A stretch of 7,949 nt of DNA from Candidatus Delongbacteria bacterium (GTDB lineage: Bacteria; Delongbacteria; UBA4055): contig JAQICF010000026.1 in NCBI GenBank assembly GCA_027858795.1, forward strand, positions 1-7,949, given 5' to 3'. The notes under the pieces were generated by a model that saw only the letters and a list, made by a program, of their open reading frames with translations, ran no database searches and was not told the origin of the DNA. Position numbers and translations under genes: made by a program. Below, one piece after another: positions 2,037 to 7,708 of the stretch (position 1 is its first letter; every line of letters starts with the position of its first letter).

Positions 2037-2573
2037 TTATGCTAAAATAAGTCTAGTATTTGCTGTTAAAATATCAACATCTGCATCTCTAAAATCACGA
2101 TCATGTGTTAAAAGAACAAAATTATTTTCTTTACAAATCTCAAGTAATATTCTATCAGAAAAATCCAGATGATCTACGACCAACATATTCACAATGTCTT
2201 CCTTTGAAAAGCTATTACCAACAAGATTAAAGTGTTTGAATACAGTACCTTTTAGTAAACTATATATTTCATCAATTGTATTATGTCCAGCATCGCTATC
2301 TCTATACACTTTTTTCTTTAAACGAAGGTTATTATTATCTTCTTTATATTTTACATACTCTATGTCAAAAGCTTTGTTGAAAACTTCAGAAATAACCGTT
2401 AGGTCAATAAATAGTTTGTTTTTGTTGTTTAATAATATTTTTAACAATTTAGCATATTTAGTTTCACAATCATTACTACCAGTTGCCCAAAAAAGATATA
2501 AAAGTATATTTGCATCAAAAAATATTTCTCTTTCAATTAATTCATTTGCTCGGGTTAAATCGTATTTACTCAT
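2037..2573 (-). CDS. PIN-domain ribonuclease-like protein, end gene of the ATPase/STAS/PIN module
   Basis: The 178-residue product has the acidic pattern of PIN nucleases. It has D20 in the opening strand IFFDANILLYLF, E63 in VISEVFNKAF, D140 (with D137) in HLDFSDRILLEICKEN, and D158/D160 in the closing FVLLTHDRDFRDADVDILTA. These side chains normally bind Mg2+ or Mn2+ for single-strand RNA cleavage. It is longer than typical VapC toxins of about 130-140 residues, because of an inserted charged segment around residues 75-120. I chose the ATG at 2571-2573 rather than the in-frame ATG at 2600. This start overlaps the stop of the upstream STAS gene in ATGAGTAA (8-base overlap), a classic translational-coupling arrangement, and is preceded by a purine-rich GGTGAGGGTGA. 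The longer start would push the frame deep into the STAS gene. No small VapB-like antitoxin is adjacent; the partners are a STAS-like protein and a GHKL ATPase, which I infer control this nuclease. The substrate is unknown. Confidence 0.8.
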   Translation of the reverse strand: MSKYDLTRANELIEREIFFDANILLYLFWATGSNDCETKYAKLLKILLNNKNKLFIDLTVISEVFNKAFDIEYVKYKEDNNNLRLKKKVYRDSDAGHNTIDEIYSLLKGTVFKHFNLVGNSFSKEDIVNMLVVDHLDFSDRILLEICKENNFVLLTHDRDFRDADVDILTANTRLILA

Positions 2574-2928
2574 CGTCACCCTCACCCAATATATCATCAA
2601 TTGATTTTCTTAACTGCTTATCACGATCTTTGTAAAATGCTTTAGCGGTATCAGTTACTCTTTTGATTCTCTGCGCATCATCAGGTTCGAGATTTATAAC
2701 TTCTAAACTTGATTTGATTTGCTCTTCAGGATAATCTCTATAAAGCTGACCAACTGCCGTGTTAAGAAATGCAGTTGTTATCATTTCTACATTCTGAAAA
2801 GATAGTACGATTCTCTTTCCCTCGTTTAAACCTTTTTTTATAAAATCGTAAACTTTCTGACCGTCTTCAGCTTCTACACAAAGTTGACTGCCTACAATAT
2901 TGTATATTTTCAATTCAATTGAATCCAT
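2566..2928 (-). CDS. STAS-like DUF4325 protein
   Basis: This is a 120-residue protein. Its core GKRIVLSFQNVEMITTAFLNTAVGQLY (about residues 37-63) matches the STAS-like DUF4325 family, which is usually encoded next to a histidine-kinase-like ATPase, as here. The region aligns in layout with anti-sigma-factor antagonists, with a strand, then a ser/thr-rich loop (TTAF, near residues 51-54) at the position phosphorylated in SpoIIAA-like proteins, then a helix. The C-terminal 40 residues are highly charged and helical. By family analogy its role is as a partner and possible phosphorylation target of the ATPase; this is inference. AGGAG (plus-strand 2934-2938) lies 5 bases before the ATG and overlaps the stop of the ATPase gene. 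Only 8 bases separate the two coding regions. Its own stop overlaps the PIN start, so all three products should be made together. Confidence 0.85.
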   Translation of the reverse strand: MDSIELKIYNIVGSQLCVEAEDGQKVYDFIKKGLNEGKRIVLSFQNVEMITTAFLNTAVGQLYRDYPEEQIKSSLEVINLEPDDAQRIKRVTDTAKAFYKDRDKQLRKSIDDILGEGDDE

Positions 2929-2933
2929 ATTAA

Positions 2934-2938
2934 CTCCT
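2934..2938 (-). promoter_or_regulatory. Ribosome binding site of the STAS-like gene, overlapping the ATPase stop
   Basis: AGGAG on the minus strand is followed by 5 bases and the ATG at 2926-2928. The TAG stop of the upstream ATPase gene (2937-2939) shares two bases with it. This implies that translation of the STAS gene is coupled to termination on the ATPase gene. Confidence 0.7.
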
Positions 2939-3800
2939 AAAATAAATCATTATTATCTATTTCTTCCTTTAACGCATAAGATGTATTATCATCAGTACAA
3001 ATACTCACATTTATTAAGGAACCTGGGAAATTGTGTGGGAATTTACTGATATGTACACCTTCTTCATCATATTGATATAAACCATTTCCACTTATAATTT
3101 GCAACTTACCTTTGTTTAATTTAATAAATTCAATTAGTATTGCAAGTCCAATACCACCAGAAATATCTTTTTTTGTTGTATTCCTATCCTGGAGTGCCCA
3201 TTTTATAGCTTGAATTGATGTGAAATTTGTTAACAAAGCATCGTTTACAACTTGTTTGAATCCTTTACCGGTATCAGCAATTGTGAATTCTATTCTATTT
3301 TTTCCCGGGTAAAACTGTCCGCAAGTATAAATAAACTTTGTTCCACTGTGATCTTTTGCATTAACAAAAAGTTCATAAATATATTCTGTTATTCTTTTTT
3401 TTAATCCTTTCGTCATTACTGGCAACTCAGGTCTATTAATAAATTCTTCTATAATATAACTGTTAAAGAATCTGCCATCTGAAGGTTTAATTTTCAAATA
3501 TTTTATCGTACTATGCCTGTCATCATATACTGTTGGGTGTCCGTAGTGTGATAAAAATCCATTTCTTTGTAACACATTTTCTGTATCTAAATTCTGTATA
3601 GTAAAATTGATTGTATTTAAGTTGTCAACAAGCAAATCTAAAACACCACCTAATACAGCTGACATATTTGCACCGAACCACTGATCCAAATGAATATCTA
3701 TATTTTCAAAGATCTCATCTTTAAATTTATCATAGAATTCAATTATCTGGTAATAACTATTATATTTATTATCAATATTTTTTAATGTGTAAGTTGCCAT
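2937..3800 (-). CDS. GHKL (histidine-kinase-like) ATPase
   Basis: In this 287-residue protein the C-terminal half is a GHKL ATP-binding domain. The N box is YELFVNAKDHS with E143 and N147, the G1 box is IADTGKGF with D176, G178 and G180, and the G2 box is SGGIGLAI (214-221). It closes with a GSLINVSI strand at 260-267. The N-terminal part contains HLDQWFGANMSAVLGGVLDLL (about 38-58), which resembles the WFxANxxAxLG stretch found ahead of the ATPase domain in similar proteins and looks like a degenerate STAS-type fold. No H-box, sensor or membrane segment is seen, so this is not a conventional sensor kinase. It is closer to SpoIIAB/RsbW-type protein kinases or to soluble GHKL switch ATPases. 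It starts at the ATG at 3798-3800 after a weak AGGGGA about 13 bases upstream and is the first gene of a tight ATPase/STAS/PIN unit. A 64-base gap (3801-3864) parts it from the HEPN gene upstream, with no clear promoter in it. Confidence 0.85.
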   Translation of the reverse strand: MATYTLKNIDNKYNSYYQIIEFYDKFKDEIFENIDIHLDQWFGANMSAVLGGVLDLLVDNLNTINFTIQNLDTENVLQRNGFLSHYGHPTVYDDRHSTIKYLKIKPSDGRFFNSYIIEEFINRPELPVMTKGLKKRITEYIYELFVNAKDHSGTKFIYTCGQFYPGKNRIEFTIADTGKGFKQVVNDALLTNFTSIQAIKWALQDRNTTKKDISGGIGLAILIEFIKLNKGKLQIISGNGLYQYDEEGVHISKFPHNFPGSLINVSICTDDNTSYALKEEIDNNDLF

Positions 3801-3864: not shown

Positions 3865-5226
3865 TTAATTTTTCACTTCTTTCACCCACGGAACAAATTC
3901 TATTTTATAATGGTTACATCTATTCTTGTGTTTACCTTTATATTCTAAAATATATAAGAGAGACATCTCAATATACCATATCGATAATTCAAGAGCTTCC
4001 CAAACTACATCTACATCTAACTTAGATACTTTTTTTCTTTTTTCTAGCTCAGAGTGTACTATCGCATTTCTTATTTGCACTATAGCATCTGGTGCATCTT
4101 CGATATCTTTTGTATTTTGAATATGCCCTTTTAAATGAGTAAATTTATCTGGTGCATTATAATCAATTTGTAAATGAGAAAGCAGTAGCCTTAATTTATT
4201 AGAAGCAGAAATATTGTTAGCATCTTTACCTAGGAGTAGACCTTTGTTTTCTATTAGCAACCAATTGTAAATTAGCTCTATAGCTGTCTGTGCCATTATT
4301 ATTGAGCCTTCGATATGAGCAGTATTGCTATTCGCTTCGATATACCAGTGAATTGCTAGTCTAATAAAATCTCTGTCATTTTCATCTGACCATAATTTAA
4401 AAAAATTCTTAAATAAATCATTGTTGAATTTAATAGATATAAAAGTCCAATTTGGAATATCTTTGTAAGGATCAACAATATAATGATTGTAATCACACCA
4501 TTGAAATTCATTTTCAAATATACCAGTATGAAAAAGTGAAGATAATCTACGCCCATTTAAAAAACTGAGAAAAATGCTAAAAGCAATTAGTATCTCTTGC
4601 CCTTTTTTCAAGGTAATATCCCCTTTCTTTTTTCTCAATTCTCCAGCATATAGTATTAAAAAGCCTCCATTCGCTTTTATATTTTCATATCTTACCTTAT
4701 GATCTAATTGTTTGTCAATTATTATTTCAAAATCATCATTTTCAAAACAGATTCTACTTGAAAATGAGCCCCGTCCAATTGGATAGTTGACAGTAGTTCC
4801 ATAAAATTCTCTTAAATTAAGTACAGAAAATCCAATATACTCAACAGGTATTGATTTATCACCTAAAACAGCATCGTTCACGGTTCCTTTTAATTCTATA
4901 TAATCCCATTCTGTTGATGAGGAATTGCTCGTTATGAAGCAATCTCCAAATCTTAAATTATTCACTACTACTTCGTAAAAATCATTTTTTTCAAAATATT
5001 CATAGATTTCTTTATTAATTTCGTTCGTTTTAACACTAAAATCAACCTTAATTGATGGGAACCATTTAAATTCGATAACACCTTTAACATCAATTTCAAA
5101 TTCCTCATGTCTTAACTTAAAGTCCCCTTCATAGATATTTATTACTTGATTTGGTTCAAGCATTTCAATCGGGGAATTAATGCAGATTGGATATTTTTTT
5201 TCTTTTATTTTAACATCTTGATTCAT
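3865..5226 (-). CDS. HEPN-domain protein with a separate N-terminal beta-rich domain
   Basis: The 453-residue product (counted from the second ATG) carries a C-terminal HEPN fold. A long helix GSIIMAQTAIELIYNWLLI is followed about 60 residues later by the catalytic-type motif RNAIVH (R386, H391), an RX4H signature, then by further amphipathic helices. HEPN proteins with this motif are commonly metal-independent RNases. The N-terminal 200 residues are strand-rich and not recognised, though the layout (large beta domain, then C-terminal HEPN) is like that of ApeA, whose N-terminal domain has different sequence. A central IFLSFLNGRRLSSLF stretch looks conserved. The start at 5224-5226 is preferred because GGGGAG lies 7 bases upstream. 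The in-frame ATG at 5239-5241 would add 5 residues and overlap the previous gene by 11 bases. Four bases separate it from that gene. I infer an RNase effector acting with the two upstream genes. Confidence 0.75.
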   Translation of the reverse strand: MNQDVKIKEKKYPICINSPIEMLEPNQVINIYEGDFKLRHEEFEIDVKGVIEFKWFPSIKVDFSVKTNEINKEIYEYFEKNDFYEVVVNNLRFGDCFITSNSSSTEWDYIELKGTVNDAVLGDKSIPVEYIGFSVLNLREFYGTTVNYPIGRGSFSSRICFENDDFEIIIDKQLDHKVRYENIKANGGFLILYAGELRKKKGDITLKKGQEILIAFSIFLSFLNGRRLSSLFHTGIFENEFQWCDYNHYIVDPYKDIPNWTFISIKFNNDLFKNFFKLWSDENDRDFIRLAIHWYIEANSNTAHIEGSIIMAQTAIELIYNWLLIENKGLLLGKDANNISASNKLRLLLSHLQIDYNAPDKFTHLKGHIQNTKDIEDAPDAIVQIRNAIVHSELEKRKKVSKLDVDVVWEALELSIWYIEMSLLYILEYKGKHKNRCNHYKIEFVPWVKEVKN

Positions 5227-5230
5227 TTCT

Positions 5231-6241
5231 TTACTCCCCATCTTCCATATTAGCTTTATCTGGAAGAATTACTCTTATTAAATCTTTCAATTTCTTAAAG
5301 GCTTCTTTAATTTTATCTTTTTTCCATAAAATAGTTTGTAAATGACTTGTATCAAAATGAGTACTTTCTTTATTGAATTTCGTTTCGTTACAAAAATAAA
5401 TCACAGATTTACCTAAACCTTCTGCATATCCTGCTTCCCAGTATGCGCCATAATTGTCATCAGTTAGATCAGATATCAACAAACAACTCTTTTTTATCTC
5501 AACTCTTAAATGATTATCAATGATACCATCCTTAGGTTTATCAATTAGCCTTACAAGATCTAAACCTAAATCCTCTTTAAATTTTTTAACTAAAAAATTC
5601 TCGAAAACATCGGTCAAATCTTTATTTCCAAACTTCATAGCCATAAAAACCTGTTTACTGTATGATTTTTCTTTCTGTAGTTCTTCATATTCCCACCAAC
5701 CTTGGAATGTTAAACCAATCCTATATTTATAATCAAAATCATTAATCGAATCAAAACTAATTCCATAATGATTTATAAATTGGGTTTCATTAATTAAGTA
5801 CTTAATTAAATAATGCAAATCGAAGAATGTTGAACTCCCTATAATTGCACATAATTTCAACTTTTTAGATTCTGTTTCAAAAAACAAATTAGCACTTAAT
5901 GATTCTGTATGATTACCCAAATACAAAATTAAATTATCAGCTTGTTTTGCAGGATTCGGCAATTTTAATGATTCAAAAAATTCTACTGTATAAATCGGTT
6001 TATTAAAATCTGGTATATGACCTTTTTCATTCTGTGTTCTAATCCAATGACTCAAAGCCATTTTTTTGGATTGTTCAAATTTATCTACTAATTGATGCAC
6101 TTCAAGTGAGTATTTAAAAATTCCACACCTAACACATTCAGTACTATATTCTCGCGATGATGCATGATTAATTTGTTTTACTGGACTTTTGCAAATTTGA
6201 CATTGTTCCGTAAGTTTTTCTGTTTGATTAGTTCCCAACAT
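5231..6241 (-). CDS. Zinc-ribbon plus nucleoside 2-deoxyribosyltransferase-like protein
   Basis: The N-terminus of this 336-residue protein has two CxxC pairs, C14/C17 and C36/C39, forming a probable zinc ribbon. A middle region (about 45-190) of unrecognised sequence ends in GLTFQGWWEYEEL. From about 196 the C-terminal domain resembles nucleoside 2-deoxyribosyltransferases and related NDT/TIR-like folds. It opens with QVFMAMKFG, followed by ISDLTDDNYGAYWEAGYAEGLGKSVIYF (256-283), where D258, N263 and E269 fit the substrate-binding and nucleophilic-glutamate pattern, and later by HFDTSHLQTILW (295-306). Canonical members exchange bases on deoxynucleosides; NDT-like domains in conflict genes could cleave nucleotides or NAD, or bind a nucleotide signal. 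Which applies here is not visible. The ribosome site GGAG lies 7 bases before the ATG. The gene sits 12 bases after the ApeA-like gene and 4 bases before the HEPN gene, so it is the middle of a three-gene unit. Confidence 0.8.
   Translation of the reverse strand: MLGTNQTEKLTEQCQICKSPVKQINHASSREYSTECVRCGIFKYSLEVHQLVDKFEQSKKMALSHWIRTQNEKGHIPDFNKPIYTVEFFESLKLPNPAKQADNLILYLGNHTESLSANLFFETESKKLKLCAIIGSSTFFDLHYLIKYLINETQFINHYGISFDSINDFDYKYRIGLTFQGWWEYEELQKEKSYSKQVFMAMKFGNKDLTDVFENFLVKKFKEDLGLDLVRLIDKPKDGIIDNHLRVEIKKSCLLISDLTDDNYGAYWEAGYAEGLGKSVIYFCNETKFNKESTHFDTSHLQTILWKKDKIKEAFKKLKDLIRVILPDKANMEDGE
5234..5239 (-). promoter_or_regulatory. Ribosome binding site deciding the HEPN gene start
   Basis: GGGGAG on the minus strand is 7 bases ahead of the ATG at 5224-5226 and overlaps the end of the upstream coding region. 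The competing in-frame ATG at 5239-5241 would have no usable site, so the shorter protein is preferred. Confidence 0.6.
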
Positions 6242-6253
6242 TTTGTATCTCCA

Positions 6254-7708
6254 TTATTTCTCGACTTCAACAATCTTCTCTTCAAATTTATATTCACCTT
6301 CCAAAATCTTCCGATACTCGTAAAACCGTTTCAAACATTCAATAATTTTATCATCAGGAAATCCAATTTTTCTTAAAAATACTGCTGTAAGAATCATTTT
6401 TGCACCATAAAACAACCAATATAAATCTTCACCCTCATAACAAAATGGATTTCTCTTCTTTTTTTCTTCGCTATCTCCGTGAGATATCGCATGTCGTGTT
6501 TGAGCAATTGCTTTTACAAAATTATTAAAATTTGGAATTTTTCTAATAAATTCAAAACTCAAAACTAGATTTGATATTCTATCTTCATAGTTGATATTTT
6601 TTGCATTGTTCGTCAGGTATTTATTAAGCCATTTCCTATATTTATCCTTTTTTGAATCAGAAATACATTCTAACAGTTCATTTTTTCTTTTCTTAAATTC
6701 AACAGTATTTATAACATAATCATTCTTTTCTTTTTCAAGAAAAATCCATGTATAAGAATCCAAAGCTTGTGCTAAAGATAAAAATTGAAACCCTATTAAA
6801 TTCTGCGTGTAATAAGTTAAGAAAAACATATCATAAATATGTTTTAGTTGATTATACTCAAAATACCAATTTTTTAGTGCCTTTTTAAATCCAATTTTTT
6901 CTAAATCTTCAAAATAGAAAATTTCGTACATTAAACGGCCATTAAGGTCTTTTGTCGTATGATCTCTTCTTATAAATATTTCTTTTGTGTGCAATCGCTC
7001 TTTATTGTATGACCAAATTTTTTCTAAAAAAACAGGTTCGGAAGTAGCTAAACTGATAAAATTTTTAAGATGATTTAAATCTCTTTCAATCTCGTCAATA
7101 TGAGTATTTTTTGTATAGTTTAATAAAAAGTATGGTTTTTTCTGGATATTACAGTATACATTACCCTTTTTATAGTTTGTGCTAATACAAAACTTTATTG
7201 TTAAATTATTTCTTACTTTTGACAAAATTGTTTTCTTTGGAAGTACATGAACACCATAACCTTCTTTACCATTGTGATACTCATTAAATGGAAGTTTTAT
7301 GATATTTTCTTTTACCCAAAATTCCAACATTGGTAAATATAATGCTAGCATCTTGTATTTGATTCTATCTTCTGAGCTAAATAAATTATTTGAAAATATT
7401 TTTTCTATATAAAAAAATGATGTGTTATCGCCCTTATATCCATTACAATTATATAAAGTCCAAGTAGCTCCTCTATTATCTTTCCTTCTACAACCAAGTA
7501 TTATTTTATGAGTACTACCAAACTGTTTAATTAAATCATTAGCTTTTTTCAATCTCGCTTTTTGATCTTTTATTTTATCATCAATAATATCGGTATGTAC
7601 AATTTTTAAGCTACCCCCTTTAATGGGGTCATATTCCAAAAAACCAAAAAATTTTTCATCCTTTTTTTCTGGCCACCAAAAATATCCTTGTTCTTTAAAT
7701 GCTTTCAT
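6254..7708 (-). CDS. ApeA-like HEPN protein
   Basis: The 484-residue product opens with GYFWWPEKKDEKFFGFLEYDP (about 8-28), closely matching the GxFWxPxxxxxxxxGxLxxDP opening of the ApeA N-terminal domain. The C-terminus is a HEPN fold. The segment QFLSLAQALDSYTW (308-321) is the first helix with the LAQALDSY pattern typical of ApeA-type HEPN. The motif RHAISH (R405, H410) is the RX4H catalytic signature, near the expected distance. ApeA from Escherichia coli is a known anti-phage HEPN protein thought to act by abortive infection through RNA cleavage. This protein shares that architecture but is linked to two further genes, and ApeA itself works alone. GAGG (plus-strand 7717-7720) lies 8 bases before the ATG. 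A stretch of 71 bases parts it from the restriction-modification-like gene upstream, filled by a three-way-junction structure. No membrane segment is seen. Confidence 0.8.
   Translation of the reverse strand: MKAFKEQGYFWWPEKKDEKFFGFLEYDPIKGGSLKIVHTDIIDDKIKDQKARLKKANDLIKQFGSTHKIILGCRRKDNRGATWTLYNCNGYKGDNTSFFYIEKIFSNNLFSSEDRIKYKMLALYLPMLEFWVKENIIKLPFNEYHNGKEGYGVHVLPKKTILSKVRNNLTIKFCISTNYKKGNVYCNIQKKPYFLLNYTKNTHIDEIERDLNHLKNFISLATSEPVFLEKIWSYNKERLHTKEIFIRRDHTTKDLNGRLMYEIFYFEDLEKIGFKKALKNWYFEYNQLKHIYDMFFLTYYTQNLIGFQFLSLAQALDSYTWIFLEKEKNDYVINTVEFKKRKNELLECISDSKKDKYRKWLNKYLTNNAKNINYEDRISNLVLSFEFIRKIPNFNNFVKAIAQTRHAISHGDSEEKKKRNPFCYEGEDLYWLFYGAKMILTAVFLRKIGFPDDKIIECLKRFYEYRKILEGEYKFEEKIVEVEK

Follow-up and report, generated by a model that had tools for sequence, protein, structure and literature searches.

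Three adjacent genes on the minus strand of a 7,949-nucleotide stretch of DNA from a Candidatus Delongbacteria bacterium (assembly GCA_027858795.1, contig JAQICF010000026.1; the whole stretch is hereafter the window, and all coordinates are window positions) very probably constitute a divergent VapKSC operon, in which a PIN-domain toxin would be held by a STAS-like protein and released by a GHKL kinase. This trio has been described as vapKSC (Chambers et al., EMBO J, 9 June 2026; PMC13373217), in the only paper returned by a literature search for VapKSC. A preliminary description of the window, made from the DNA letters alone, had mentioned that no named defence or toxin-antitoxin system of such a composition was known to its author; that publication supplies the name. 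GHKL and STAS are absent from the main text of the DefensePredictor paper (PMC13092281).

The published work reports 289 vapKSC instances, 103 of which (36%) have a further immune gene no more than 10 kb away (PMC13373217). The operon of Escherichia sp. E4736 gave about 2 logs of protection of E. coli against phage Bas42; its VapC is toxic and is neutralised by VapS without VapK, and crystal structure 9Z7O represents a 2:2 VapS-VapC complex (PMC13373217). The S48E substitution in VapS abolishes both neutralisation and VapC binding, and protection is lost with D28A in VapC, S48A in VapS or F54A in VapK, Phe54 being the conserved aromatic residue proposed for single-stranded DNA (ssDNA) and the equivalent of CapK W68 (PMC13373217). 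Phosphorylation of VapS by VapK is supported by the phosphomimic and the loss-of-protection mutants, with no direct assay of VapK; activation of VapK, an insoluble protein, by ssDNA was deduced from CapK and modelling, and tRNA or rRNA as the VapC target is the authors' guess (PMC13373217).

Evidence for a probable divergent VapKSC operon

The vapK-like gene (2937-3800, minus strand; 287 amino acids), identified by Pfam HATPase_c and alignment, is followed on the same strand by a vapS-like gene encoding a DUF4325/STAS-like candidate antitoxin (2566-2928; 120 amino acids, with a C-terminal tail beyond the STAS domain) and by a vapC-like gene for a PIN-domain nuclease (2037-2573; 178 amino acids), identified by Pfam PIN, a family profile and a VapC-type fold. 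The junctions are as previously described: an 8-base gap separates the vapK stop from the vapS start (2929-2936), and the vapS stop and vapC start share the 8-base ATGAGTAA overlap (2566-2573). The vapC start adopted here is the ATG giving 178 amino acids, which coincides with the start of aligned relatives, the longer listed open reading frame (ORF) using a TTG at 2600. All three reading frames are open and active-site residues are kept.

DUF4325 is the sole significant Pfam match of the VapS protein (2.8e-20), and the sequence matches the Escherichia VapS chain 9z7o_A with an E-value of 5.1e-16 (query residues 6-115), a match that reaches 2.4e-25 with a VapS profile. In the alignment to 9z7o_A, Thr52 (codon 2773-2775, minus strand) falls on the phospho-acceptor Ser48, a position occupied by Ser or Thr in 74 of the 75 aligned VapS rows; these rows include at least five duplicates (L205-L208, L173; loci are given by their L numbers). 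The sole exception is L180, an orphan VapS-like gene with Asp.

The PIN domain of the window VapC is recognised by Pfam at 4.8e-7. Two alignments, both including the window sequence, were used for this protein: A2, of 25 rows drawn from 26 matches after one short match had been dropped, and A3, of 22 more divergent rows. The acidic site noted in the preliminary description is borne out by both, since residues D20, E63, D137, D140, D158 and D160 are invariant throughout. The A3 profile matches the Escherichia VapC chain 9z7o_C (E 4e-9), with the invariant Asp20 (codon 2514-2516, minus strand) aligned to the catalytic Asp28. Predicted structures were made for VapC and VapK; structure comparison with Foldseek and VIA supports a VapC-type fold of the former, and 9z7o is not among the best 50 Foldseek or 50 VIA rows (library entries to 8 April 2026).

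VapK comprises an N-terminal region (residues ~1-88) and a C-terminal SpoIIAB-like ATPase (~97-267), whose HATPase_c match (3.1e-5, 24.8 bits) lies slightly below the Pfam cut-off of 26.4. Conservation was assessed in alignment A1, composed of 50 kinase rows including that of the window and chosen from 120 listed of 293 matches. The N, G1 and G2 boxes, earlier described as complete, are unchanged across all 50 rows: the N box with E143, N147 and H151 (3348-3374), the G1 box DTGKG at residues 176-180 with D176, G178 and G180 (3261-3275), and the G2 box GGIG at residues 215-218 with G215, G216 and G218 (3147-3158), all on the minus strand. As in VapKSC, the GHKL kinase domain is intact. It is closest to SpoIIAB in the VIA structure comparison, whose rows leave residues 1-88 uncovered; in the model, these residues follow a beta-alpha-beta-alpha-beta-alpha order, as expected of a STAS fold. 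Of nine distant kinase relatives scanned, only L186 and L189 touched STAS models, both below the cut-off.

By homology with the Escherichia operon, for which this step has been demonstrated (PMC13373217), VapS in resting cells would bind VapC, with its C-terminal tail near the active site, and keep the toxin off RNA. A stress signal, probably ssDNA from phage infection or DNA damage, would activate VapK, which would phosphorylate VapS at Thr52, the Ser48 equivalent; phosphorylated VapS would then let go, and the freed VapC could cleave RNA, halting growth and phage multiplication. We infer Thr52 to be the acceptor, ssDNA the trigger and tRNA or rRNA the target.

Conservation of the kinase-STAS-PIN trio

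When species genomes were scanned with the kinase family, 278 stretches matched, and a relative is encoded in 61 of them. The preliminary description had suggested counting how often a PIN gene follows related kinase/STAS loci; far from being absent from nearly all of them, a PIN, whole or partial, is present in 54 of the 61, a figure that includes partial PINs (L052, E 3e-4 at a contig end, and L054) and split kinases (L007, L054, L059). Near full-length copies of all three genes occur in 45 loci. Of the seven loci where no PIN was found, four run off the contig (L011, L014, L015, L061), and in the other three (L035, L056, L058) the kinase gene is truncated, L056 also ending within ~0.7 kb. 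At a stricter threshold, the kinase-STAS-PIN order on one strand was found in 53/53 loci containing all three genes; the median spacings, measured from longest-ORF starts, are 4 and 2 bases.

Pairwise distances among the three proteins were compared by a Mantel test on 46 sets, namely the 45 loci with near full-length genes and the window, giving correlations of 0.91 for kinase-STAS, 0.85 for kinase-PIN and 0.82 for STAS-PIN, which none of 2,000 permutations reached. These values show co-inheritance and not contact, because part of such a correlation comes from the common descent of the hosts. The trio is a conserved unit. By title, the records bearing it belong to Bacteroidota, Pseudomonadota, spirochaetes, Desulfobacteria, Sulfurovum, Fibrobacteres and Brocadia-type planctomycetes, and include a Deinococcus plasmid; bacterial groups are those mentioned in the VapKSC section of the published study (PMC13373217). 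A reading begun from raw sequence independently supports VapKSC as a widespread unit.

No relative is encoded in any of the 29 candidate stretches from viral contigs, and a promoter scan stayed at chance level (16 found against 14.8 ± 3.9). The trio of L004 is on a contig binned as archaeal (a Methanosarcinales archaeon metagenome-assembled genome by record title), where mis-binning is possible, and Streptococcus phage Javan172 (L063, 3863-5141) carries a GHKL and STAS-like pair near an integrase, with no annotated PIN gene.

Comparison with known systems and alternative explanations

The window operon shares with the published VapKSC its gene order, single strand and tight spacing, a homologous VapS (E 5.1e-16), a VapC homologous by profile (E 4e-9), the phospho-acceptor, the catalytic Asp and defence-like neighbours. 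It differs in having a distant PIN subtype as VapC (178 amino acids compared with the 203-residue Escherichia chain) and Thr instead of Ser as the acceptor; moreover, phage protection, toxicity and release by a phosphomimic were seen in Escherichia, whereas the window clade is known here from sequence. CapK and CapS likewise pair a GHKL kinase with a STAS substrate carrying a phospho-acceptor, but they differ in the N-terminal helix-turn-helix (HTH) of CapK, the C-terminal winged helix of CapS and their control of transcription (PMC13373217); in Pfam scans, no HTH was matched in the window VapK and no winged helix in its STAS protein. The SpoIIAB/SpoIIAA/sigma-F and RsbW/RsbV systems differ in that the window effector is a nuclease and that the STAS protein holds the effector in the published relative; no sigma factor was found among the eight window ORFs scanned. 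Classical VapBC also places a VapC-fold PIN toxin beside a likely antitoxin, but in the window the gene joined to vapC encodes a DUF4325/STAS-like protein, probably controlled by a kinase, and not a small VapB. Matches of the trio to GajB (0.0084) and DrmA (5.6e-6) in PADLOC were set aside, as the models are far longer than the short portions matched.

Several observations weigh against assignment to VapKSC. The window VapC sequence alone matches no VapC in PDB, and the narrower A2 profile matches no solved VapC at E ≤ 1, unlike the Escherichia-type relative L167, which matches 9z7o_C at 1.4e-43; the window VapC is therefore far from the tested Escherichia toxin. The STAS-like order modelled for the N-terminal region of VapK has no counterpart in sequence searches, with Pfam STAS found in 0/50 members and an hhalign probability of 0.1% against VapS. 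The equivalent of VapK F54 falls on either Trp41 or Val49 of the window kinase, the alignment being ambiguous, and if Val49 is the equivalent, the window kinase would carry a changed form of the published ssDNA site. Escherichia-type kinases themselves carry two candidate Phe residues for this position (44 and 52 in P0147). Among 120 listed of 773 protein matches, most of them nameless, the kinase of Escherichia sp. E4736 was not recognised; one plasmid and two phage matches did not yield it either, and a vapKSC stretch of L037 had no match in E. coli complete genomes. Finally, some VapS-like genes stand without a PIN (L164, L180, L194), as does one kinase of the same family (L186).

The distance of the window VapC from the only VapC tested also makes this clade a good place to ask whether the trigger and RNA target are shared.

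Other explanations of the trio account less well for these data. The kinase and STAS protein could act as a CapK/CapS-like transcription switch controlling neighbouring immune genes, of which the PIN gene would be just one, as suggested by the published control of transcription by CapK/CapS pairs (PMC13373217) and by the defence-like genes surrounding the operon. We regard this as very unlikely: the window STAS protein has 120 amino acids with DUF4325 as its only significant match, the kinase shows no HTH match, and it is the PIN that tracks the kinase/STAS pair (54/61 loci), whereas none of the ApeA-like, HEPN-like, deoxyribosyltransferase-like and DUF4238 proteins of the window is matched at E 1e-4 in the loci compared.

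A SpoIIAB-type switch, in which the kinase itself would bind the nuclease and the STAS protein would release it, would agree with the closeness of the kinase domain to SpoIIAB and with the analogy drawn in the preliminary description; it nevertheless appears highly improbable, given that in the homologous Escherichia system it is VapS that joins VapC in a 2:2 complex, and neutralisation does not need VapK (PMC13373217). Of the partner-switching control of RNA cleavage put forward in that description, control by a kinase and a STAS protein is retained, and the arrangement is revised in that the nuclease would be held by the STAS protein, not by the kinase. That the neighbourhood is decayed or due to chance, and has no function, is extremely unlikely in view of the three open frames, the retained active-site residues and the strong conservation of the trio, even though broken trios occur elsewhere and the RhuM-like gene of the window encodes 133 amino acids compared with roughly 330 for those of L164-L169, a shortness by which the island may have undergone some decay.

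DUF4325 survey and third genes

In a second sample, begun from DUF4325 and not from the kinase, this domain was sought in 369 genomes from the class of G001 and 395 from the phylum of G002, with matches in 54 and 66 genomes, respectively. The survey set consisted of 75 stand-alone matches; five matches below the cut-off were left out, as were those in frames longer than ~170 amino acids, mostly fused to other sequence, and L209, a kinase match. Loci L205-L208 had been chosen for holding the trio, and L173 repeats L022. A PIN gene is adjacent in 28 of the 75 loci and a gene for a protein with a hydrophobic segment, picked by eye, in 14, with neither in 33.

The PIN gene goes with the window kinase family and not with DUF4325 generally, since it is present in 26 of 27 loci whose neighbouring kinase matches that family at E 1e-24 or better (the exception being L186), compared with 0/12 loci in which the kinase match lies between 3.6e-19 and 1.3e-7. 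When the four trio-chosen loci and one repeat are dropped, the first proportion becomes 21/22. Two PIN loci remain: in L142 a contig end cuts the kinase, and in L163 a search for the window kinase family found none. Two of the loci without a PIN can be described further: L164 holds an Escherichia-type vapS with just two short vapC remnants and no kinase match, and the VapS-like gene of L180, with its Asp at the phospho-acceptor position, has neither a kinase match nor a PIN adjacent.

To this already known kind of system the survey adds a range of third genes. The PIN third genes fall into a window-type group, an Escherichia-type group (L163, L165-L167, L169, L174), a group of L187, L192 and L199, and L196 with L202. 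Three of the survey PIN profiles were built from the proteins they matched, so the PIN call for those rows rests on other matches: the A3 profile is matched by L196 and L202 (1e-27) and by L174 and L192 (about 1e-8), L187 and L199 match L192 at 1e-33 or better, and the third proteins of L163, L165, L166 and L169 look almost identical to that of L167, which itself matches 9z7o_C. On its own, the L187 third protein had no Pfam or PDB match.

The 14 loci with a hydrophobic third protein (L135, L137, L138, L145, L146, L148, L150, L152, L156, L159, L181, L184, L188 and L195), here termed sister loci, encode this protein of 104-215 amino acids after the DUF4325 gene. It is clearly hydrophobic in 10/14, exceeding 2.0 on a 19-residue hydropathy average, a measure on which PIN neighbours reach 1.75; the other four (L145, L148, L152, L181; 1.55-1.76) are not separated from PIN neighbours. 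By phmmer, the third proteins form a linked group of six, a pair (L152-L159) and a group of four (L150, L181, L184, L188), with L146 and L195 unlinked. The L181 protein matches a 2TM CBASS effector model (3.7e-6) and, below the cut-off, SLATT_4 (0.0045); the other seven third proteins scanned match no Pfam family above the cut-off. A YG[S/T]SFL motif recurs in 8/14 DUF4325 proteins of these loci.

A GHKL-like frame, mostly of 320-380 amino acids, precedes the DUF4325 gene in 13 of the 14 sister loci. Ten of these 13 kinase-like proteins have a very basic start, with at least 13 Lys/Arg within the first 45 residues, and pattern searches find N-box-like motifs in 12/13, G1-like in 13/13 and G2-like in 9/13. 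Pfam ATPase models match four of the ten scanned, all below the cut-off. In these loci a membrane effector may replace the nuclease. It is possible, though doubtful, that unlike effectors (several PIN subtypes and membrane proteins) have been exchanged as third genes behind the GHKL/DUF4325 pair, which would then be a portable control cassette; the weak GHKL call in the sister loci makes this proposal less likely. If true, phosphorylation of a STAS inhibitor would gate membrane damage as well as RNA cleavage. A literature search turned up no published system with a portable GHKL/DUF4325 cassette and a membrane third protein.

Genomic neighbourhood of the window operon

The remaining genes of the window resemble a defence island. 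At 6254-7708 lies the gene for an ApeA-like HEPN protein (Pfam ApeA_NTD1 8e-19, HEPN_Apea 1.7e-17; PADLOC candidate PDC-S58), and two minus-strand genes with an 11-base overlap (3865-5241 and 5231-6241) show weak matches, one to Apea-like HEPN (3.6e-4) and the other to nucleoside deoxyribosyltransferase (0.0035) and a PADLOC TIR effector (1.3e-4). Relatives of the second gene of this pair occur in 16/296 genomes searched; in the six loci fetched for them, a search out to 1.5 kb did not find the first. On the other side of the operon are a DUF4238 gene (895-1956; Pfam) and a short RhuM-like gene (203-604; 133 amino acids), the latter being the only window neighbour with matches (E 1e-4) in other fetched loci. 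RhuM-like matches also lie near vapKSC in L004, L023, L037, L059, L163-L167 and L169, and the RhuM-like gene stands directly after vapC in L163, L165-L167, L169 and L004.
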